Made by a program: the position numbers and the translations under genes. DNA of 64,000 nt, taken from contig NZ_AP024702.1 in NCBI RefSeq assembly GCF_037076345.1, forward strand, positions 2,976,001 to 3,040,000, given 5' to 3'. Positions 2-49,080 of the stretch are shown in pieces. The stretch's first letter is position 1. Each line of letters begins with the position of its first letter. Source of the stretch: Haloferula helveola. GTDB taxonomy: Bacteria > Verrucomicrobiota > Verrucomicrobiia > Verrucomicrobiales > Akkermansiaceae. Under the pieces are notes generated by a model. That model had not been told where the DNA came from. It did not search any database and worked only from the letters and a program-made list of their open reading frames with translations.

Positions 2-1162
2 GGCAAGACCTACATCAAGCACATCCCCGACGCGCAGGTCGCCGAGGCCAAGGCTGCGGGGACGCTCGATGCGACGACGGATTTCTCACGGGTTGCGGAG
101 TGCGATGCGCTGATCCTTTGCGTGCCGACACCACTGGACGAACACTTCGAGCCGGACCTCAGCTACGTCGTAAGCACCATCGAGTCGATTGTCCCCGGCC
201 TGCGGAAGGGTCAGGTGGTCAGCCTCGAGAGCACGACCTACCCGGGAACCACCGACGAGGAACTGGTCACCCGCATCGAGGCGGCCGGCTTCAAGGTCGG
301 TGAGGACATTCACGTCGTCTATTCACCCGAGCGCGAGGACCCGGGGAATCCCGACTTCGCCGCCACCAATATCCCGAAGGTCGTCGGCGGTATTACCCCG
401 GCGTGTCTCGACGCCGGCGTTGCGCTCTATGGCGCGGTCTTTGATGAGGTGGTGCCGGTGAGCTCGTGCAAGGTCGCGGAGCTGACCAAACTGCTGGAAA
501 ACATCTACCGCGCGGTGAACATCGGTCTGGTCAACGAGCTGAAAGTCGCCGCCGACCGCATGGGGATCGATATCTGGGAGGTCATCCGCGCGGCCTCGAC
601 CAAGCCTTTCGGCTTCAAGCCGTTCTATCCGGGACCGGGTCTCGGAGGTCACTGCATTCCGATCGATCCGTTCTATCTGACGTGGAAAGCGCGCGAGTAC
701 GGCGTCCATACGCGCTTCATCGAACTCGCCGGCGAGATCAACCGTGCGATGCCCGAGTACGTGATCCATCGTACGATGGAGGCCCTCAATAGTCGCGGCA
801 AGCCGGTCAAGGGCAGCCGGGTGCTGCTCATGGGCCTCGCCTACAAGCCGGACGTTGATGACATGCGCGAGTCTCCGACCTTCGAGCTGCTCGACGGCTT
901 CAAGCGTCTTGGTGCGGAGGTTGCCTATTACGACCCGCACGTCCTCGAGGTCGGGCCGACCCGCGAGCACATGGAATGGGCCGGCACCCGTTCGGTCGAT
1001 TGGAACGAGGACGTGATCCGCTCCTTCGACTGCGCCGTCATCGCCACCCACCACAAGGCCTTCGATCTTGGCAGCCTCTCTGCTTGGTCCGACCTGATCG
1101 TCGACACCCGCAACGCCATGGCGGTGGTGGAGACCCCCGACGGGCAGGTCGTTAAAGCGTAG
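2..1162 (+). CDS. UDP-sugar 6-dehydrogenase (UDP-GlcNAc/UDP-ManNAc dehydrogenase type), 5'-truncated by window edge
   Basis: Oxidises the C6 hydroxyl of a UDP-sugar to a uronic acid with NAD+, a cytoplasmic precursor step for polysaccharide synthesis. The frame is open from base 2, so the N-terminal Rossmann domain is cut off by the window edge; 386 residues remain. The catalytic cysteine lies in [12 protein letters not shown] near visible residue 218, and the C-terminal UDP-binding domain follows ([15 protein letters not shown]). The wording around the cysteine resembles WbpA/WecC-type enzymes more than UDP-glucose dehydrogenase, but the substrate cannot be fixed from sequence alone. Stop is TAG at 1160-1162, overlapping the first base of a repeat element. 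Confidence 0.92.
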
Positions 1163-1253
1163 AGCCAAGAGCGTAGAGCGGGGAGTCAGGCTCCCGACCC
1201 ACTCCTCTCCCGGCTTTTCCAACTCTTGGCTCTCAGCTCCAAGCTCCTTGCTC
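1161..1253. repeat. Degenerate heptamer-periodic inverted repeat element
   Basis: Fills the whole gap between the dehydrogenase and the fucose synthase gene. The left arm (1161-1181) reads as three 7-bp units of form AGAGCNN. The right arm (1219-1253), read on the minus strand, is five 7-bp units of form GAGNNNN. AGAGCCAAGAG (1161-1171) has a perfect 11-bp reverse complement at 1223-1233, and GGGAG/CTCCC forms a small inner hairpin at 1181-1195. There is no T-run, so it is not an obvious terminator. The same design recurs at 5829-5934 and 33349-33426. Confidence 0.75.
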
Positions 1254-7203: not shown

Positions 7204-7407
7204 GTAGGGACAAGCGCCCCCGGTTCCCCCGATAAAGTCGGGGCTTGTCCGTCCGGTCCGCGCCCCTGGTCCCCTCGATTGGGTCGGGACCTTGTTTGCG
7301 GGGTCCGGCGCCCCTCCCTCTGCTCCCTGCGCCCTCGGCGAGGGCGCGCCACCTTGAGGGGAGGCTACCTCGAGAATCTTCCCCTTTGCGTCTTGGCGTC
7401 TTTGCGG
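7204..7407. repeat. Intergenic hairpin cluster with a REP-like half and an octamer array
   Basis: The gap between cysN and the next gene holds stacked inverted repeats. GGACAAGC/GCTTGTCC surrounds CCCCGA/TCGGGG, then GGTCCC/GGGACC follows, then a REP-like hairpin with stem GCGCCCTC, loop GGC and stem GAGGGCGC near 7330. The tail GCGCCACCTTGAG is identical to the tail of the REP inside the MBOAT gene. The 3' part (7384-7407) is three 8-bp units of form CTTNGCGN. No open frame or promoter is evident. Confidence 0.65.
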
Positions 7408-8532: not shown

Positions 8533-10380
8533 ATGATTGAAACGGGGACATGGTCTTCAAGCTCACCGGGGCAACGGATTCTCGTAATGATCCTCGGAGC
8601 AATCGGACTTCAAATCCTGTGCGCCAAGTCCTTCAGCGCCTGCGGGATTCTGGCTTTGTCGTGGGTCGGCACGCTCGGGATTGTCATCGTCAGTGCGGTC
8701 GCGACGACGTGGATCATCAGGGGGGCTTCGCACGGCGAGATCCAACGGTTCGTTGCTCCGTGGAAGTCCTGCGTGCCTTGGATATTCGTGCTCTTGCTGG
8801 TTCTTCAGCTGAGTCTCTATCCGCCGATGATGAGTGACTCTTTGTCATACCGGCTACCTAGGATTTTTCTCGCGCTTCAAGCAGGGCACACCGGCGAAGT
8901 CGCGTCGCCGGACGTGCGGATGAACACCATGCCTTGGGGCTGGGAGTCCCTCGCGCTGCCGTTTGCGTTGGTCAACTGGATCGGCGGGGCGCGGTTGATC
9001 AATCTCGCCTGTTGGTGCCTCGCTTATCAACTGGTGACTTTTCTCGCCGCGGGAAGAGGTATCTCCAATTCAAAGGCGCGATGGATCGGTTTGGCTTTGT
9101 GCTCGGCACCGTTTCTGTTGCTGCAAGGTTCCTCAACCGCCAACGACCTTTTCGCCTCCGTAATGTTGTTGGCAGGTGGGGCACTGATGTTCTCTTTCCG
9201 CGGACACCTCGGGCCAGTTCCTGTGCTGGGGTCCCTATTGGGACTCTTATTGGCATCAAGTGCCAAGCCCCAATTCCTGACGCTCGGCCTACCATGGTTG
9301 TTTTGGTGGGCTACAGCGCCGGGCCAACCGTGGAAGCAGGTCAGGTGGCAGTGGCTTGCGGCTGCATGCCCGGTTTTCGTAGCGGTTTCGCCATTGCCGC
9401 TGCTCTTCACGCAGCTGTTACAAACCGGGGCTTTGGGAGGTGATGCCGTGGGGGGCGGTGAGTCTTCCGGGTGGGTGACGATGGTCGGGGCCGGATTGCT
9501 GCAATCTACGGTTGCTCAAGCCCAATTGCCGGTTTTTCCCGGCGCAGACTGGTTGAGCGGCCAAATCGGTAGTCTGCCAATCCTTTCGTCGATCAGCCAA
9601 TCACTTCCCAAATTCGAACCTCGGGTGACGACCGTGCCCCTCATCGACGAGGCGAGTTTCGGGGCCATTCACTTTTCAATCCTCGTGGTCTGGCTGTGGA
9701 TGGGAGTGGTTCGCTGCGGACGGTTCGGATGGGTGTGGCTCGCATGCGTCACCGCCGCCTTTCTGTTCGCGTGCTCCCAAGTGTTTGTTGCCACCATGGG
9801 CCGTTCCTTCGCGGGCTACGGCTTCGCGCTCTTTCCGCTGGCGATATTGGGAGCTTCGAGAATGTCCGGTTCACGCTGGTTTCGATCGCTTTGCGGAGTG
9901 GCAATACTAACCGGATTTGCCACTCTCGTTGTCAATCCATCGGCTCCGCTCTGGCCTGCGCGTGATTTCCGGGCGCGCGCGGAATCCGCGGGGAGCGAGG
10001 CTTTGGTGTCCAAGCTCGACAAGTATCTTTCCTACCAGGAAAGGGCGCGAACCGGCCGGGGAATTCTGTCTCCCGTGCCCGGTGGGGAACCGGTAGCGAT
10101 CCTTGTTCGGCCGGTGACTCCAATCCTCGCCCTATGGCAACCCGATTGGAGAAGTCATCAGATTGACTACGTCAACCATCTGCCCGTCGAGGATTTCCTG
10201 AAGAGTGATCGCAACTGGCTGGTCGTGGCGGCGAATGCCGAGCAGTCCCATCCATCGGCTTTTGCCCTGTACTCGAGCTTGCCGGGCTGGAGTGTTGTTT
10301 CCGAGCAAACATACCTTCCCAACATCCGTCAAGGCGGCGAGACGTGGCGGCTCTATCGCCGGTCGAATATCGGAGACTAA
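8533..10380 (+). CDS. Polytopic membrane protein, GT-C-like glycosyltransferase candidate
   Basis: 615 aa with about 10-12 predicted hydrophobic segments and a soluble C-terminal tail. After the third hydrophobic segment there is a loop with YPPMMSDSLSYRLPRIFLAL; acidic residues and YR in this position resemble the first periplasmic loop of lipid-phosphate-sugar-dependent GT-C enzymes. The protein at 17607 shares this loop (FPPTNYDALIYRTARV) and the same overall layout, so the two are paralogues. The likely role is transfer of a sugar from a polyprenyl-phosphate donor outside the membrane, but that is inference. It is preceded by a 131-bp gap with no recognised element, and the next gene begins 5 nt after its stop. 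Confidence 0.7.
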   Translation: MIETGTWSSSSPGQRILVMILGAIGLQILCAKSFSACGILALSWVGTLGIVIVSAVATTWIIRGASHGEIQRFVAPWKSCVPWIFVLLLVLQLSLYPPMMSDSLSYRLPRIFLALQAGHTGEVASPDVRMNTMPWGWESLALPFALVNWIGGARLINLACWCLAYQLVTFLAAGRGISNSKARWIGLALCSAPFLLLQGSSTANDLFASVMLLAGGALMFSFRGHLGPVPVLGSLLGLLLASSAKPQFLTLGLPWLFWWATAPGQPWKQVRWQWLAAACPVFVAVSPLPLLFTQLLQTGALGGDAVGGGESSGWVTMVGAGLLQSTVAQAQLPVFPGADWLSGQIGSLPILSSISQSLPKFEPRVTTVPLIDEASFGAIHFSILVVWLWMGVVRCGRFGWVWLACVTAAFLFACSQVFVATMGRSFAGYGFALFPLAILGASRMSGSRWFRSLCGVAILTGFATLVVNPSAPLWPARDFRARAESAGSEALVSKLDKYLSYQERARTGRGILSPVPGGEPVAILVRPVTPILALWQPDWRSHQIDYVNHLPVEDFLKSDRNWLVVAANAEQSHPSAFALYSSLPGWSVVSEQTYLPNIRQGGETWRLYRRSNIGD

Positions 10381-10384
10381 GGCG

Positions 10385-11740
10385 ATGACGACGGTCCAAT
10401 GCGTCCAACATAAAGTGATCGACGCGGGAATCTGCGTGGGTTGCGGCGCTTGTGTCGCACTTGCCCCGAAGAGCACGGCCAGGATGGTTGTCACAGAGTC
10501 CGGGGTTGAGCCGGACTTCGATCACGGGTGCGCGTTGCCACCGCTCGCTTGGGAGGCATGCCCCGGCAAGGGCATCGACTATCCCGATCTCTACCGGAAG
10601 CACTACGGTTCTTTGCCGACGGACTGGAGGGTCGGGCATGTCGACCGCCTTTGGACCGGGCATGCATCGGACCCAGAAGTCCGCCGGACCGGGGCTTCCG
10701 GCGGGGCGACCAGTGCGGTGCTTATCCACTTGCTGGAAAGCGGCCGAATCGATGGTGCCGTTTCGGTGAAACAGGGGATACCTGAGCCGGATCAGGCCTC
10801 TTGGTTCATTGCCCGGTCGGCCTCCGAGATCCTTGCCTGTGCCCAGTCGGTCTATGTGCCGGTGTCGGTGCTCGACGTCCTGCCGCATCTGGTGGCGGGG
10901 GAGCGTTACGCCATGACCTGTGTGCCGGAGCAGAGTGCTGCCTTGCGGGCCCTCCAGCATGGCGGTGACGAGAGGGCGCAGCAGGTGAAGTTTGTCCTGG
11001 GGCCTTACACCGGGACCGCGCTTGACCGCCGGGCGATTCGTTCCCTGATGCGGGCGAACGGCGTGGTCGAGGACGATGCGGTCACCTCGCTGAAGTGGCG
11101 GGCGGGGGAGTGGCCGGGCTATCTCGAAATCATCACGGAATCGGGAAAGGTCATCCGCTCGAAGAAGGTCTACTACAACGTCCTGATCCCGTTCTTTGTT
11201 ACCCAGACCAGTTTGCAGAGCATGGACTTCGCCAACGAGTTCACCGACCTCTCGGTCGGAGATGCTTGGTCACCCAAGTTCGAGGGGCTCGGCCAGGGGT
11301 TCTCGGTGGTGGCCTCGCGGACTCCTGTGATGACCGAGGTCATCGAGGAGATGATGAAGCTCGGGAAGCTGGAGTTGGAGCGTGCGGACGTGCTTGAAGC
11401 ATCGGCCATGCATGGGCACATGATCGACTTCAAGAAGCGTGGCGGCTACCTGCGCAACCGCTGGCGTGAGGCGACTTTCCGCAAGGCCCCTGACATCGGT
11501 CTCGATCCAGAGCCCCTGGACTTCCCCCGGATCGCTGTGGAACTCGTCATCTCGTCCATCTTCACCGTATGCCGGACGCCCCTTGCCCGTTGGGTCATGG
11601 AACATATTCCGGAGAAGATTCTCGGCCCGTTATTCAACAAGCTCCGCCTGGTTTGGAAAGGCGCGAGCAAGCCAGCCAAGCGAAAAGGCCTGCGCGACCT
11701 CGAGATGCGGGTTCGCGTTCCGGATTGGAAACTCAGGTAG
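10385..11740 (+). CDS. FrhB/FdhB-like iron-sulfur flavoprotein (coenzyme F420 hydrogenase beta family)
   Basis: 451 aa from ATG 10385, 5 nt after the previous stop; a longer frame upstream overlaps that gene and is rejected. N-terminal cluster motif CVGCGACVALAP (about residues 17-28) has three of the four usual ferredoxin cysteines, with alanine where the fourth is expected before proline. The FrhB-like GASGGATSAVLIHLLESG and a C-terminal domain with DLSVGDAWSPKFEGLGQGFS follow. Family members in EPS loci are common but their reaction is mostly unknown; a redox modification of a sugar is a guess. The stop TAG lies within the left end of a REP element. Confidence 0.8.
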   Translation: MTTVQCVQHKVIDAGICVGCGACVALAPKSTARMVVTESGVEPDFDHGCALPPLAWEACPGKGIDYPDLYRKHYGSLPTDWRVGHVDRLWTGHASDPEVRRTGASGGATSAVLIHLLESGRIDGAVSVKQGIPEPDQASWFIARSASEILACAQSVYVPVSVLDVLPHLVAGERYAMTCVPEQSAALRALQHGGDERAQQVKFVLGPYTGTALDRRAIRSLMRANGVVEDDAVTSLKWRAGEWPGYLEIITESGKVIRSKKVYYNVLIPFFVTQTSLQSMDFANEFTDLSVGDAWSPKFEGLGQGFSVVASRTPVMTEVIEEMMKLGKLELERADVLEASAMHGHMIDFKKRGGYLRNRWREATFRKAPDIGLDPEPLDFPRIAVELVISSIFTVCRTPLARWVMEHIPEKILGPLFNKLRLVWKGASKPAKRKGLRDLEMRVRVPDWKLR

Positions 11741-11821
11741 CGCGCTCTCGCTGAGAGCGCATGCGGAACCCCGGCGGCGGACCCACCCCAAAAACTGCCC
11801 TCTCCGCGAGAGGGCGCTACC
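11736..11821. repeat. REP element upstream of RAYT gene
   Basis: Begins GGTAGCGC and ends GCGCTACC. The first hairpin is at 11741-11760 (GCGCTCTC, loop GCT, GAGAGCGC). A shared middle ATGCGGAACCCCGGCGGC follows, then a second hairpin at 11797-11815 (GCCCTCTC, loop CGC, GAGAGGGC). The TAG of the left end is the stop codon of the FrhB-like gene. A copy with the same order and orientation lies on the other side of the transposase gene at 12361-12429. Confidence 0.88.
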
Positions 11822-12280: not shown

Positions 12281-12360
12281 AGGTGGAGCGGCCTCGCCGA
12301 GGCCGCACGAGTTGCCCTGCAAGACCGCCCGACCCCAGATGCCCTACCTTCAATCAGCCC

Positions 12361-12429
12361 GGTAGCGCATGCGGAACCCCGGCGGCCAACGCAACCTCCA
12401 AAATGCCCTCTCGGCGAGAGGGCGCTACC
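12361..12429. repeat. REP element downstream of RAYT, abutting the next start codon
   Basis: Perfect 8-bp ends GGTAGCGC (12361-12368) and GCGCTACC (12422-12429), with an inner hairpin GCCCTCTC, loop GGC, GAGAGGGC at 12405-12423. It ends 1 nt before the ATG at 12431. GAGAGG (12416-12421) inside the hairpin is the only Shine-Dalgarno-like sequence at suitable distance (9 nt) from that ATG. Confidence 0.88.
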
Positions 12430-12430
12430 T

Positions 12431-32162: not shown

Positions 32163-33749
32163 ATGTTTTTCCATTCTTGGGAGTTCCTGATCCTGCTGGT
32201 TGCCACCGCGGTGGCATATTACCTGCCGGTCGTCTGCGGCAGGCGTCGGGTGTGGCAGGTCTCGCTGCTGCTGATCGCGAGCGCCGTTTTCTACGCGTGG
32301 GAAAATCCGAAGCTGCTGCTCCTGCTCGGCGTGTCCTGCGTGATCAACGCGGTGGCCGTCGAACGTATCCTGTTCTGGAAGTCCAAGGTAGCGTCCTCTC
32401 GCCGAGAGGGCACGGAGAAGGAGGCGGACGCGCTGGAGCAAGATGCTCCCTCGGCGAGGGAGCGCCACCTTGAGCACCGGGCCCGTCGGTGGCTGGTGGG
32501 GACCGTTGCCGCGAACTTGGGGCTGCTGGCATTCTTCAAGTACGCCGGTTTCATCGCCGGTTGGTTGCCTGAAGGATGGATGGGCAAGTCGATGCTCGAA
32601 TGGCTGCGCGGCATCCCGTTGCCGGTCGGCATCTCGTTCTACACCTTTCAGGGCATCAGCCTAGTCGTCGACACATGGAGGCGGGACATCAGTCCGCACT
32701 CGATGGCCATGATCAGAAGGCGAGGTCGCGATCGTCCGGCTTCGATCCGGGACCTCTCCTTCTACATCAGCTTTTTCCCCCAACTGGTCGCCGGTCCGAT
32801 CGTCAAGGCTCATGATTTCCTCGACCAGATCGGCGCCAAACGGTGGGGAGACATCGACTGGATCACGGTGCGGCGGGGTCTGGTCACCGGCTACTTCCTG
32901 AAGATCTTCGTCGCGGACAACCTCGCCGAGCAGACCGGGGTGCTGGCTCTCGGTGCGGACAAGGTGGAGGGCATGAGCACCGTGGTGAGCATGTCATTGC
33001 TGTATGGATACTCGTTGCAGATCTTCGCTGACTTCGCCGGCTACTCGCTCATCGCGATCGGGCTCGGGGCGTTGTTCGGCTACAAGCTGCCGCCGAACTT
33101 CAACTTCCCGTATCTCTCGACAAGCATCACGGAGTTCTGGAGGCGCTGGCATCTGTCGCTATCCTCGTGGCTTCGCGACTACCTTTACATTCCGTTGGGC
33201 GGAAATCGCAAAGGCGGCGGTCGAACCTACTTCAACCTGTTCCTGGTCATGTTTCTTGGGGGCCTTTGGCACGGTGCCGCGTGGAAATTCGCCCTTTGGG
33301 GTTCGCTCCATGGCGTTTTTCTGGCGGCCGAGCGATTGGTCCAGCGTGGAGCAAAGAGCGGAGAACAGAGATTGAATCCGAGGAAGAGTTCTCGACTCCG
33401 TTCACTGTTCTCCAAGCTCTTTGCTTGTTCGAAGTGGTTCCTCACCTTCCATCTGGTCACGCTGCTGTGGCTGACTTTCATGATGCCTGACTTGGAGAGC
33501 ATCGGGGCGTTTTTCCATGCGGCCGGTTCGCTGCGCTTCGGTTTCTCGGGCCCGCCGGTTTTTGCGCTGGCCTTCTACGGAACCACGGTCGTCGCCTACC
33601 ACGCGTGGGGCTGGCTGTCGGAGCATCGCGACGTTCTGGCTCGCAAGCTCGCGCGATCGCCGCTGGAACCCTTATGCCACTCGCTGATGGTCTTCCTGGT
33701 AGTCACCAATCCGGGGGCTCCACGGGGCTTCATCTACTTCCAATTCTGA
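32163..33749 (+). CDS. MBOAT-family O-acyltransferase (AlgI-like) carrying two repeat-derived insertions
   Basis: 528 aa, polytopic. It transfers acyl groups across the membrane to a periplasmic partner that modifies the polysaccharide, as AlgI does in alginate acetylation. Hallmarks are FYISFFPQLVAGPI, FADFAGYSLIAIGLG, ITEFWRRWHLSLSSWLRDYL, YIPLGGNRKG and the catalytic-histidine motif FLGGLWHGAAW. Residues about 75-103 are encoded by a REP element and residues about 396-421 by a heptamer-periodic repeat. Both lie in hydrophilic loops and keep the frame. It is longer than typical AlgI (about 470 aa) by roughly these two inserts. The SGNH partner is at 34620. Confidence 0.92.
   Translation: MFFHSWEFLILLVATAVAYYLPVVCGRRRVWQVSLLLIASAVFYAWENPKLLLLLGVSCVINAVAVERILFWKSKVASSRREGTEKEADALEQDAPSARERHLEHRARRWLVGTVAANLGLLAFFKYAGFIAGWLPEGWMGKSMLEWLRGIPLPVGISFYTFQGISLVVDTWRRDISPHSMAMIRRRGRDRPASIRDLSFYISFFPQLVAGPIVKAHDFLDQIGAKRWGDIDWITVRRGLVTGYFLKIFVADNLAEQTGVLALGADKVEGMSTVVSMSLLYGYSLQIFADFAGYSLIAIGLGALFGYKLPPNFNFPYLSTSITEFWRRWHLSLSSWLRDYLYIPLGGNRKGGGRTYFNLFLVMFLGGLWHGAAWKFALWGSLHGVFLAAERLVQRGAKSGEQRLNPRKSSRLRSLFSKLFACSKWFLTFHLVTLLWLTFMMPDLESIGAFFHAAGSLRFGFSGPPVFALAFYGTTVVAYHAWGWLSEHRDVLARKLARSPLEPLCHSLMVFLVVTNPGAPRGFIYFQF
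32385..32471. repeat. REP element inside the MBOAT coding sequence
   Basis: Outer ends AAGGTAGCG and CGCCACCTT are near-inverted. Inner hairpins are CCTCTC/GAGAGG (32395-32409, loop GCC) and GCTCCCTC/GAGGGAGC (32445-32463, loop GGC). These hairpins match the stem and loop design of REPs flanking the RAYT, and the tail GCGCCACCTTGAG is identical to one near 7350. The element is about 87 bp (29 codons), so the reading frame is kept. It encodes a charged linker rich in R, E and S. Confidence 0.85.
33349..33426. repeat. Heptamer-periodic inverted repeat inside the MBOAT coding sequence
   Basis: The left arm is four contiguous 7-bp units starting GAGC or GA (33349-33376). The right arm is six contiguous 7-bp units on the minus strand (33385-33426), beginning at the far end with AAGCAAA then GAGCTTG. 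The total of 78 bp is 26 codons, so the frame is kept. It encodes a basic, serine-rich linker. The arms match the pattern of the intergenic element at 1161-1253. Confidence 0.75.
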
Positions 33750-33753
33750 CCCA

Positions 33754-34623
33754 ATGAGCACCGCCCCGGCCCAATCCGTGCCTCCCGGTTTCGCTTCGCT
33801 CGCGCTCGCCCGCGGCGTGGTCGGCTTTTACAGGCTGTGGCACGGGACTCTCGGACTCCGGGGAGCGGGCCGGCTGATCAACCACCTGTCGCCACGGCTT
33901 TCCGGGCTCCAATGCTACCCGCTGCGGCTTCCGAACGGACATATTGCCGAAGTCGATTTCCGGGAGCTGTCAGCCTTCGGATGGCTCAACACGATGCTGG
34001 GCGATGACAATCAGGAGACACCGTTGATCGAAGCAATCGCTGCCCATCTCTCCGGGGACAGCGTGTTCTGGGATATCGGTGCGAATGCTGGAATCCTGAG
34101 CGCGGAGATCGCTCGCAGGACCGCGATCGGAGAACATCATTATTTCGAGCCGAACCCGCGTATCTACCCGTGGGCCGAGGCGGCTCTCTCGCACCTGCCG
34201 CAGGCCCGCGGGCATCCGGTCGCGGTGTCGAGTTCCGAGGGCACCGCGACCCTGTTCATACCGGTCAACCTGAGCGCGTTCGGCTCGCTGGAGGGCAACT
34301 GCCGCGGCGAAGCGATCAGGGTCGAGGTGGAGACCGTGTCGGGAGACCTTCTCGTATACGAACGTGGCTTGGCTCCGCCGTCGGTAATCAAGATCGACAC
34401 CGAGGGTCACGAGGTCGAGGTCATGGGCGGTATGCGGCGACTGGTCGCCGAATACCGGCCGCTGGTTTTCTTCGAGCACATCGAATTGTCCGACGAACAG
34501 GTCCGGGCGATGACGCCCGAAGGTTATCGCGTCGGCACCCTGTGCGATACTACGGGAGCCATTCTAGATCGGCTCGACCGGAGCGCGGGACACAACTCGG
34601 CGCTTGTGCCGACGGAACGATGA
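33754..34623 (+). CDS. FkbM family methyltransferase
   Basis: 289 aa. SAM-binding motif VFWDIGANAGILSAEIA (about 104-120), YFEPNP, then the FkbM signature VIKIDTEGHEVEVMGGMRR and EYRPLVFFEH. FkbM enzymes O-methylate sugars or polyketides; here the target is presumably a sugar hydroxyl of the EPS. It lies between the MBOAT gene (4 nt upstream) and the SGNH gene (4-nt overlap), splitting the acylation pair. Confidence 0.9.
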   Translation: MSTAPAQSVPPGFASLALARGVVGFYRLWHGTLGLRGAGRLINHLSPRLSGLQCYPLRLPNGHIAEVDFRELSAFGWLNTMLGDDNQETPLIEAIAAHLSGDSVFWDIGANAGILSAEIARRTAIGEHHYFEPNPRIYPWAEAALSHLPQARGHPVAVSSSEGTATLFIPVNLSAFGSLEGNCRGEAIRVEVETVSGDLLVYERGLAPPSVIKIDTEGHEVEVMGGMRRLVAEYRPLVFFEHIELSDEQVRAMTPEGYRVGTLCDTTGAILDRLDRSAGHNSALVPTER

Positions 34624-35489
34624 GATACGCGGTCACATGGGCTCTGGGGCTCGTCCTCTGCTTCACGGTCCAGGGCGTTGCGCTGCGTCTTGTCGGCGGA
34701 CGAACGATCAAGAGCGAGTCGAACTATTTCTCGTCTCTGGGTCGGATCCAGGCGGGAGTCCGTGGCGAACCCCGCGTGATGATGCTGGGGTCGTCGATCA
34801 CCGGTCGGCTGCCCGACCGGGCGCAGGGATTCAACGGGCTCGCGAATTTGGGGTGTGATGGCGGTAGCGCGGCCGACACCTTGAGGGCGATCGACCAGGG
34901 TTTGTTGCCCGCCGCTCCGGTTCTGCTCGTGGAAGCCAATTCGCTTCACCTCGCCATGCCGGGTGGCACGAGCGAGGTCGGCCAGGCCATCCATCGCCCT
35001 TGGTTCCGCGTCGGAGTGGAAGTGCCGGCCGTCAGCTCCTACGCCCGGCCTGCAGCGTTCGCCTACTCCCGTCTTCTGGCGACCCGGACGGGGGGATTCG
35101 GCGACGCCCACCGCGATGATCTGGGCCTCGGGTCCGCCCCGTCCACTCCAGCCTGGAGATGGGACATCTCGGAAATCGACGCTCTCGCGCGGCGCTACTC
35201 CGATGAGCTGGTGGACGTGATCCGGAGGGTCGAGCAGGCCGGCTCGCGAGTCATCGTCGTGCTGCTACCGCCAGCCAGGATGGAGGGTGGGGAACCGCCG
35301 CCATGGTTGCGCCGCACGATCTCGGAGTCGGGTGCCGAGTGGTGGGATCTCGGCACCGACGTGGATCCCGGGCTGGTCCAACTGACGGATGGCGTGCACA
35401 TGGATGGCGGCACCGCAGTGCGGACAGTGAATTCCATCCGCTCGGGTTTGAACTTGCCCGACCCAACCGCCAACGTTCTCCAGAGATGA
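34620..35489 (+). CDS. SGNH-like membrane-anchored acyltransferase partner (AlgJ/AlgX-type)
   Basis: 289 aa from ATG 34620 (ATGA overlap). The N-terminal hydrophobic segment (residues 4-24) is an uncleaved anchor or signal. SGNH blocks are visible: MLGSSIT (block I serine, about residue 58), NLGCDGGSA (block II), LLVEANS (block III-like) and DGVHMDGG (block V Asp and His, about 260). Such proteins receive acyl groups from an MBOAT protein and place them on the polymer in the periplasm. The MBOAT gene at 32163 is the likely partner. Function inferred from motifs and context. Confidence 0.78.
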   Translation: MRYAVTWALGLVLCFTVQGVALRLVGGRTIKSESNYFSSLGRIQAGVRGEPRVMMLGSSITGRLPDRAQGFNGLANLGCDGGSAADTLRAIDQGLLPAAPVLLVEANSLHLAMPGGTSEVGQAIHRPWFRVGVEVPAVSSYARPAAFAYSRLLATRTGGFGDAHRDDLGLGSAPSTPAWRWDISEIDALARRYSDELVDVIRRVEQAGSRVIVVLLPPARMEGGEPPPWLRRTISESGAEWWDLGTDVDPGLVQLTDGVHMDGGTAVRTVNSIRSGLNLPDPTANVLQR

Positions 35490-47311: not shown

Positions 47312-48118
47312 ATGCACTTCACAATCATTACTCCCAGCCTGAACTACGGCGGGTTCCTGGGCGATTGCCTTGAGAGTGTCGCCGCGCAGACAGGAGTCGA
47401 TCTAGAGCATCTGGTCATGGATGGCGGATCGACCGACGGCAGTGCCGAGTTGGTTGCGGAGTATCCCCAAGCGATGTGGCATCAGGAGCCGGATACCGGT
47501 ATGTCACAGGCCATCAATCGCGGATTCGAGCGCGCGAAGGGTGACTGGGTGATGTGGCTGAATGCCGACGATCGATTGAAACCGGGTGTTCTTGAGGAGA
47601 TGCTGAGAACCCTGGCGGCTTGCGACGAGGACGTCGTTTACGGAGACTTTGATTTCGTCAAGCGGGACGGTTCCCTGATCCGGACGGTACGCCTTCCACG
47701 GTGGTCCCCCTTTGTCCACGTGCACCACCATTGCTACATCGGTTCGACCGCCGCCTTCTATCGTCGCAAGAGCGTGATCGATGGCGGCTTCAGGCTGCGG
47801 GAGGATTTCCGCTACGTGATGGATGGCGAGTTCTACATCCGTCTGCATGAAGCCGGTCTGAAGTTCAGGCATGTGCGGGGAGCCCTGGCGGAATTCCGGC
47901 TGCATGAGGGAAATGCCTCGATGCGGCATCTCGGTCGTTCGAAGGAGATGGATGAGGTGCTTGAAGCGGAGCGCCAGCACGTCGAATCGCGCGCGATCCG
48001 GCGCGTCTACGGGGTGACCCTGTTTGATGATCCGTACCTGAACGGGCTCTTCGATGGCGTGTTGTGGGTGGTGGCGAGGCTGTGGAAGGGAGTGCTTAAA
48101 GTGACTAGTGAGCAGTGA
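47312..48118 (+). CDS. GT2 family glycosyltransferase
   Basis: 268 aa from ATG 47312; an upstream in-frame start overlaps the divergent vanZ-like gene. FTIITPSLNYGGFLGDCLES, MDGGSTDGSAELV, WLNADDRLKPG and FRLHEGNAS match the GT2 at 40163, so the two are paralogues. The 3' end runs into an AGTGAGC tandem array that encodes the last residues (VTSEQ) and the stop TGA. The 71-bp divergent gap from vanZ holds an imperfect CGAATCGA/TCGGTTCG inverted repeat near 47270-47291 that could be an operator. Confidence 0.9.
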   Translation: MHFTIITPSLNYGGFLGDCLESVAAQTGVDLEHLVMDGGSTDGSAELVAEYPQAMWHQEPDTGMSQAINRGFERAKGDWVMWLNADDRLKPGVLEEMLRTLAACDEDVVYGDFDFVKRDGSLIRTVRLPRWSPFVHVHHHCYIGSTAAFYRRKSVIDGGFRLREDFRYVMDGEFYIRLHEAGLKFRHVRGALAEFRLHEGNASMRHLGRSKEMDEVLEAERQHVESRAIRRVYGVTLFDDPYLNGLFDGVLWVVARLWKGVLKVTSEQ

Positions 48119-48162
48119 GCAGTGAGCAGTGAGCAGTGAGCAGTGAGCAGTGAGCAGTGAGC
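48100..48162 (+). repeat. Heptanucleotide tandem array AGTGAGC bridging two genes
   Basis: Eight perfect copies of AGTGAGC (48107-48162) preceded by one variant AGTGACT (48100-48106). The array encodes the C-terminus and stop of the upstream GT2 gene and contains the GTG start (48157) of the downstream GT2 gene. TGA stops recur in the array, so copy-number change should alter spacing and not the reading frame of either gene. Confidence 0.95.
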
Positions 48163-49080
48163 GACGACGCGAAAGTTGAGACGAAGGTCGCGGTCGTTTT
48201 TGCGAGCTTCAATCGCAAGGAGGTCGCGTTGGAGTGCATCGCCCGGTTGCGCGCCCAGACGCGCCAGCCCGATCGTGTGGTGGTGGCTGACAACGCCTCG
48301 GAAGATGGCAGTGCCGAGGCCATGCGCGAGCTGGCGTGGGAGTGCTTGGAGGTGATCGACACCGGAGGCAATCTCGGCAACGCCGGGGCGGTGCGGATGG
48401 CTATGGAACATTCCTTTGAAGAGGGCTGCGATGCCGTGTGGATACTCGATGACGATTCGTGGCCGCGGCGCGACGCGTTGGAAGGGATGCTGGCGGACGA
48501 TTGGGATCCCGAGGTGTTGCGCCATCCCTTGCAGGAGGACCCCGCGACCGGCCGATTCACATGGCCGCTGCAATTGGTTCATGATGACGGAACCGTGACG
48601 ATGGCCAGTTCGGTGGACGAACTACCGCCGGGGAAGCGTCTGAGAAGTCGCGGTGTTTGGACAGGAGCCCTGATCTCGCGCCGGATCCGTGAAGTGGCCG
48701 GTCCGGTGAATGCCGAGCTCTTCATCCGTGGTGAGGACGAGGAGTATCCGTGGAGAATCGAGCAGGCGGGGTTCCGCTCAGAGGCGGTTCGGGCCGCAGT
48801 TCTCGACCATCCGGGTCCGAAGGATCTGGTTCGGCTTGGTTTTCTCGGGCGCAGCCTGTTTCTCGAACGCGGACTCTCGAACTGGAAGCTTTATTACAAG
48901 GTGCGCAACATGGTCTGGCTGAAGCGTGCCCAGTCCGGGCTCTCCGGAGCACTCGCGATGTCCGTGGCCTACGGTCTCGCCCTAATGCGATTCGGTGAGT
49001 TTCGCCTGATATCCGCTTGGTTTGCCGGTGTCCGGGACGGTCTGGCGGGAAGGCTGGGTCGCAAGGACTTCGGCCCCTGA
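48157..49080 (+). CDS. GT2 family glycosyltransferase (galactofuranosyltransferase GlfT2-like)
   Basis: 307 aa from GTG 48157 in the last heptamer; no other start codon lies before the domain (VAVVFASFNRKEV). DNASEDGSAE, then the DDD motif WILDDDSWPRRDAL and FIRGEDEEYPWRIEQAGF, the catalytic-base region, resemble GlfT2/rhamnosyltransferase-like GT2 enzymes. A C-terminal amphipathic region (about 255-300) may contact the membrane. Sugar specificity is not determined; no UDP-galactopyranose mutase gene was seen in the window, so galactofuranose is uncertain. Confidence 0.87.
   Translation: MSDDAKVETKVAVVFASFNRKEVALECIARLRAQTRQPDRVVVADNASEDGSAEAMRELAWECLEVIDTGGNLGNAGAVRMAMEHSFEEGCDAVWILDDDSWPRRDALEGMLADDWDPEVLRHPLQEDPATGRFTWPLQLVHDDGTVTMASSVDELPPGKRLRSRGVWTGALISRRIREVAGPVNAELFIRGEDEEYPWRIEQAGFRSEAVRAAVLDHPGPKDLVRLGFLGRSLFLERGLSNWKLYYKVRNMVWLKRAQSGLSGALAMSVAYGLALMRFGEFRLISAWFAGVRDGLAGRLGRKDFGP

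Follow-up and report, generated by a model that had tools for sequence, protein, structure and literature searches.

In-frame repeats of different kinds, a REP dimer and a heptamer-periodic inverted repeat, in two loops of an MBOAT acyltransferase gene of Haloferula helveola

The window analysed here is a stretch of 64,000 nucleotides of the Haloferula helveola genome (NZ_AP024702.1, GCF_037076345.1, positions 2976001-3040000; the genome comprises 5,677,198 bases in a single contig). On its forward strand, at 32163..33749, lies an open reading frame of 528 amino acids coding for an AlgI-like MBOAT acyltransferase, recognized by its Pfam MBOAT match (E 6.4e-26, 91.9 bits against a cut-off of 27) and by its predicted fold, whose top match is DltB (6bug_C, E 1.4e-11, TM 0.73 by target length). 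DltB (6bug_C, 8jem) is itself an MBOAT acyltransferase and shares this fold at an identity of 19%, with 414 residues compared to 528 in the query. The gene is flanked by genes for glycosyltransferases (group 1/4-like and family 61) and FkbM methyltransferases; the protein encoded at 34620-35486 has no Pfam match. This neighbourhood points to an exopolysaccharide cluster, and the enzyme would probably acetylate surface sugars. Among the best 80 named loci the best match by the MBOAT gene is L040, from a Verrucomicrobiaceae MAG (53% over the best segment), in a comparison from which records very near the own genome were possibly left out. As stated in the original prediction, this one gene carries in-frame copies of two repeat families, a REP dimer and a heptamer inverted repeat.

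The first repeat (site 1, 32384..32472 on the forward strand, residues 74-104) is a head-to-head REP dimer delimited by its inverted arms and by a REP model built from the copies in the window. The left REP (32384..32412, forward strand, 47.1 bits) has a GTAG head pointing outward and the right REP (32444..32472, reverse strand, 48.5 bits) an outward GTGG head. The arms of 29 nt each are 79% complementary and 31 nt apart, and each half of the dimer is an 8-bp hairpin; the two hairpins had been anticipated, with limits at 32385-32471 that are here corrected by one nucleotide on either side. All seven aligned REP copies of the window possess the G-T-A/G-G head and the 8-bp stem, with 56 of 56 stem cells paired. 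Three of the eight stem pairs are changed on both sides, one on one side, and four are invariant. The resulting covariation score (0.429, shuffled mean 0.155) was equalled in none of 500 shuffles; two other covariation measures were unexceptional (double-change pairs, 55/500; further pair types, 220/500). The DNA of site 1 has a fold z of -2.8, with 2 of 200 shuffles equally good. This repeat does not look like chance. No target-site duplication is seen around it. Five of the six frames through the dimer are open, and translation uses the most hydrophilic of these; the encoded residues have a hydropathy of -1.47 and are 48% charged.

The five remaining REP copies occupy three intergenic places that touch ORF ends: a single copy at 7328..7358, a dimer at 11736..11821 and two more copies within 12281..12430, all listed on the forward strand. 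The window thus contains two dimers with short spacers (11736-11821 and 32384-32472). The ORF at 10205-11740 takes its TAG stop codon from the GTAG head of the left REP (window 11736-11740), a situation described for other REPs (PMC3733652).

With the best 150 of 2965 own-genome candidates scored, the REP model gave seven matches at E <= 1, all within window positions 7328-32475; among 12 relatives (best 150 candidates per genome) G085 alone gave a match, a weak one (E 0.38). A pattern search with complete counts found six own-genome copies, every one in the window. The pattern was matched in 8 of 384 class genomes, own included, G053 having one exact copy and G174 having 17 copies of a near variant. 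In 34 sources totalling 527,840 bases, including a 400-kb sample of the own genome, the strong model matches were the seven window copies and one in L221 (G053). Weaker ones occurred in L217 (G174), and the own-sample stretch L239 held a marginal one (16.5 bits, E 0.93); at the orthologous loci of the three nearest relatives there was no match. Two other approaches were discarded: BLAST with a 97-nt REP stretch returned 27 matches at E <= 10, 23 of them read as chance and the other 4, all within the window, being REP copies, and a permissive regular-expression search produced, among the matches listed, mainly chance hits.

REP families are usually genome-wide. All seven copies found here are confined to 25 kb of atypical tetranucleotide composition. 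The 20-kb pieces within 6001-40000 lie at a distance of 0.165-0.182 from the sample mean, versus 0.153 for the most distant of 20 sample pieces, and the REPs may therefore sit in a foreign or fast-changing region.

Intragenic GTAG REPs have been published, the largest number being in Opitutus terrae (PMC3733652). The REPs described there have a GTAG/GTGG head, a stem of 6-9 bp and a short loop, form head-to-head dimers 20-100 bp apart, and encode 20-30 amino acids when inserted in ORFs; different REPs are reported at about the same recB site in two Xanthomonas species (PMC3733652). The head, stem, dimer layout and insertion in an ORF are alike here. In contrast, just seven copies were found, all within 25 kb and with no adjacent RAYT, and in relatives heptamer repeats occupy this loop, too. 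The own genome has 12 Y1_Tnp matches, none of them in the window, the closest being at 2877806 (weak) and 3116531. As to the superfamily as a whole, the GTAG/GTRG head, a stem within 5-13 bp, alternative complementary stem residues and heads-outward dimers are all present, and genome-wide spread and an adjacent RAYT are absent. According to PMC3733652, many genome-wide copies are typical of GTAG REPs, with smaller families and one clustered exception on record, and an adjacent cognate RAYT is frequent without being required. Since genome-wide spread is typical rather than defining, the REPs of site 1 are filed as a small local family.

The second repeat (site 2, about 33349..33426 on the forward strand, residues 396-422) is a degenerate heptamer-periodic inverted repeat, also in frame, recognized from nested arms, fold and periodicity. 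Its outer arms (33350-33359/33416-33425) are 100% complementary and its inner arms (33360-33382/33391-33413) 74%, and none of 200 shuffles folds as well as the native DNA (z -3.9). Over residues 391-423 both the 7-nt periodicity and the inverted-repeat score are unmatched by the compared gene windows of the same size and by any of 100 shuffles. This repeat does not look like chance either. Again no target-site duplication is seen. Four of the six frames are open, the one used being the most hydrophilic of these (hydropathy -0.73, net charge +6). The arms and periodicity expected at 33349-33426 are thus in place, with the qualification that the outer heptamers are degenerate (GAGCNNN x3 with 1-2 mismatches) and that TRF finds no tandem array within the gene. 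These last features bear on the idea that the segment is a phase-variation switch of the O-acyltransferase, working by frame change through 7-nt slippage. A 7-nt unit does shift the frame and the O-acetyltransferase NeuO has been described as phase-variable (PMC13001214). However, the degeneracy of the units, the lack of a TRF array and the absence of internal stops among the matches listed speak against it and, because of the degenerate units, such a switch is set aside as very improbable.

Heptamers of this type are found elsewhere in the genome. The window contains a GAGCNNN inverted repeat between two sugar-nucleotide genes (1155..1253, forward strand, pattern match). Genome-wide, four successive GAGCNNN units were matched 38 times in 10 arrays, versus 0 for the reversed control. 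The same pattern was matched in 9 of 16 relatives, with little or no excess in G090 and G076 (2 and 3 matches versus 1 and 4 in the controls). The arrays examined are mostly intergenic or at gene ends. A relaxed pattern (GAGCNNN x3 with 2 mismatches) was rejected, being weakly above chance in the window alone (23 matches, mean 14.3, 3/100 shuffles as high). Lag-7 periodicity is in excess in the own genome: at the strictest threshold, a scan of 464 kb gave six matches at lag 7 and none at lags 4, 5, 8, 10, 11 and 13, while lags 6, 9, 12 and 15, which are codon multiples, gave 4, 2, 3 and 3, and lag 14 gave 4.

A tandem array at 48100..48169 (forward strand; TRF and pattern match), a perfect (AGTGAGC)8 located where two family-2 glycosyltransferase ORFs meet, could vary in length. 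In the 464-kb scan, a U32 peptidase gene (L239 16715-19681) has two in-frame stretches of 7-periodicity (residues 595-616 and 686-709), one of them within a DUF3656 match, and two phage-type integrases (L176 3084-4694, L177 1403-2725) have heptamer-encoded tails that are alike in sequence; the MBOAT case is therefore not unique. A GAGCAGT array (L175 2517-2583) and a Y1_Tnp (RAYT-like) gene, G000:C1:2863342-2863686, are about 260 bp apart. In another genome, G120, two contigs (G120:C21, whose start is covered by L155 and L164, and G120:C27) begin inside GAGCAGG arrays, which suggests that such arrays may break assemblies.

Direct repeats of the heptamer TAACTGA are described as mostly intergenic and occasionally within ORFs, and as spreading by no evident mechanism (PMC4679880). 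The repeats discussed here resemble them in the 7-nt unit and in being mostly intergenic and occasionally in ORFs, but differ in having many unit types, an inverted arrangement and a position in an internal loop rather than mostly at protein ends. Rickettsia palindromic elements, of about 150 bp and with a conserved peptide, are likewise palindromic repeats inserted in frame, in unrelated genes (PMC10969869); they are set apart here by their description. Open-access papers, for which part of the matches was inspected, yielded nothing on heptamer inverted repeats in coding sequence, and nothing on repeats in MBOAT/AlgI was found among open-access papers.

At the protein level, an alignment of 48 MBOAT sequences shows a conserved core with W369-H370-G371 invariant. 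Residues 74-104 and 396-422 include no invariant or nearly invariant column, which agrees with the original view that the conserved MBOAT motifs are intact. The AlphaFold2 model based on these 48 sequences (mean pLDDT 89.7) places helices at 51-87 and 98-134 around site 1 and at 374-401 and 410-435 around site 2, with ten-residue pLDDT means of 76-97 and 77-96 across the two sites. As the alignment is nearly devoid of homologues of the inserts, their modelled structure is weak. The inserts had been proposed to be polar linkers: polar they are, and the model, less surely, draws them as helical extensions and not as loose linkers.

MBOAT orthologues were matched at E <= 1e-30 in 85 of 145 family genomes and, within the genus (18 genomes), at E <= 1e-100 in 12. 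Thirty loci from the 85 genomes, the own locus L120 included, were aligned with 8 distant proteins. Length at site 1 is lineage-specific: it is 6-11 residues in 26 of the 30 orthologues and 35, 38, 17 and 33 residues in the clade of L120 (own), L121, L122 and L123. A loop at site 2 is present in all 30, with 17-55 residues (median 22.5; 33 in the own protein). The distant proteins have 5-23 and 16-31 residues at the two sites. Compared to L121, L122 and L123, identity drops from 62-80% in the flanks to 10-16% within site 1 and from 64-90% to 7-15% within site 2. Conserved homologous residues at both sites, the mark by which native loops were to be known, were seen neither in the 30 orthologues nor in the 8 distant proteins. 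The proposed lengthening by repeat insertion is well supported at site 1, by the 26 short versions and by the lack of REP matches in the closest orthologue loci. At site 2 it needs rewording: as all 30 orthologues have a loop there, the repeat overgrew a native hypervariable loop and did not leave a clean gap, and the length of site 2 exceeds that of relatives without an insert by just about 10 residues, yet the repeat amounts to 26 codons. Clean gaps, as expected in orthologues, are not found at site 1 of the three closest relatives, two of which have other long sequences there (38 and 33 residues) and one 17.

DNA at both sites was read for 12 of the 30 orthologue loci, and the homologous loops contain differing repeats. 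CAAAATC units are found at both sites of L123 (G090), TTTCAG units at both sites of L121 (G093), TCTGG units (TCTGGNN) at site 2 of L128 (G076) and GAG-rich inverted arms, not strictly GAGCNNN, at site 2 of L131 (G120). In 4 of 30 loci (L120, L123, L128, L131) the site-2 inverted-repeat score is reached neither by a compared gene window nor by any of 100 shuffles, and L142 comes close (0 windows, 0.01 of shuffles). Periodicity of 7 nt at site 2 reaches <=0.02 in both tests in 7 of 30 (L120, L122, L123, L128, L129, L130, L131), L149 being borderline. Site 1 is long enough for the periodicity test in L120-L123 only, where L121 passes both tests, L123 one, and L120 and L122 neither. The TTTCAG segment at site 2 of L121 fails both tests, and the closest orthologue, L122, is 7-periodic at site 2 without an inverted repeat. 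Some of these units also occur elsewhere in their own genomes: TCTGGNN has 17 matches in G076 (2 in this gene, 15 elsewhere), 0-2 in eight other genomes and 0 in the control, and CAAAATC is present in G090, G076 and G117 only, of 17 genomes, occurring in G090 in the MBOAT gene and one other place. TTTCAGN has 8 matches in G093, none of them in the MBOAT gene, 2-4 in G071, G090, G076 and G117, and 0 in the own genome, G085, G120 and G030, with one reversed-control match each in the own genome, G093, G085 and G120.

When the 30 complete genes were scanned blindly for lags at a stricter setting, five lag-7 matches from three genes emerged, all five in the two sites, which make up 7.5% of the sequence. 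Lag 8 gave one match, also in a site, and lags 4, 5, 10, 11 and 13 none; the degenerate array of L120 fell below the threshold. This concentration weighs against the view that both segments are loops native to the protein that evolve fast and have come to look repetitive by chance or through low-complexity drift. The variability of site 2 in all 30 orthologues and the 5-23 residues at site 1 in each of the eight distant MBOATs are what such loops would show. Against this stand the lag-7 matches, the unmatched inverted-repeat scores and a REP stem that covaries with copies outside the MBOAT gene, so that we regard native drift as improbable.

On a tree of 27 rows, L120 and L123 belong to the same four-member clade, L128 lies beside L130, and L131 stands apart; only row positions are used, as the label test leaves 19 rows out of account and weighs the 8 that carry labels. 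Site 2 thus carries inverted repeats in three separate parts of the tree, which makes three separate gains likely, although the number of gains is something we infer. A single ancestral insertion in each loop, with conversion or slippage then altering its sequence lineage by lineage, would fit the clade L120-L123, all of whose members have a long site 2 (32-48) and a longer site 1 (17-38), and the sister pair L128 and L130, both 7-periodic. It fits poorly with repeat types that are wholly different and include a REP beside the heptamers, and with the placement of L131 and L128 away from the L120 clade with short-loop relatives in between. We consider it unlikely as a general account; one old insertion, later rewritten, could nevertheless replace some of the separate gains.

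The reading that we think probable is that two permissive loops have been lengthened by repeats, a REP dimer here and other heptamers in some relatives. Two places between neighbouring predicted helices would tolerate extra residues: site 1 would have received a REP dimer, while at site 2 a heptamer inverted repeat would have entered, or overgrown, the variable loop. The DNA may have been copied from repeats elsewhere, by RAYT-type transposition for the REP and by slippage or template switching for the heptamers. Only in-frame, stop-free and hydrophilic versions would survive, presumably under purifying selection, and the extra residues would probably be a near-neutral decoration. Homologous loops of some relatives would have been lengthened in the same manner by other heptamer repeats. 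Some observations count against this explanation: the loop of L122 is not of the GAGCNNN type though its genome, G085, has GAGCNNN arrays, TTTCAG at site 2 of L121 passes neither test and no TTTCAGN match of G093 falls in this gene, the units of L131 are GAG-rich without being strictly GAGCNNN, one match was at lag 8, and target-site duplications are missing.

Intragenic REPs and heptamers within ORFs have both been published before; the point added is that two loops of a single enzyme have been extended repeatedly, and by repeats that differ. Should the gains indeed be separate, they constitute a natural replicated experiment: several species have extended the same pair of loops with repeat DNA of different kinds, and one can ask by what route repeats enter genes, how much a protein tolerates and whether the residues gained come to be useful. 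The finding also bears on the question of what spreads heptamer repeats. More tentatively, and with considerable doubt, heptamer inverted repeats may be an unrecognised spreading element of this bacterial family, with a genome-specific 7-nt vocabulary, that time and again is copied into the same permissive loops or rewritten there. If this were true, they would recurrently supply proteins with new helical extensions at the surface.
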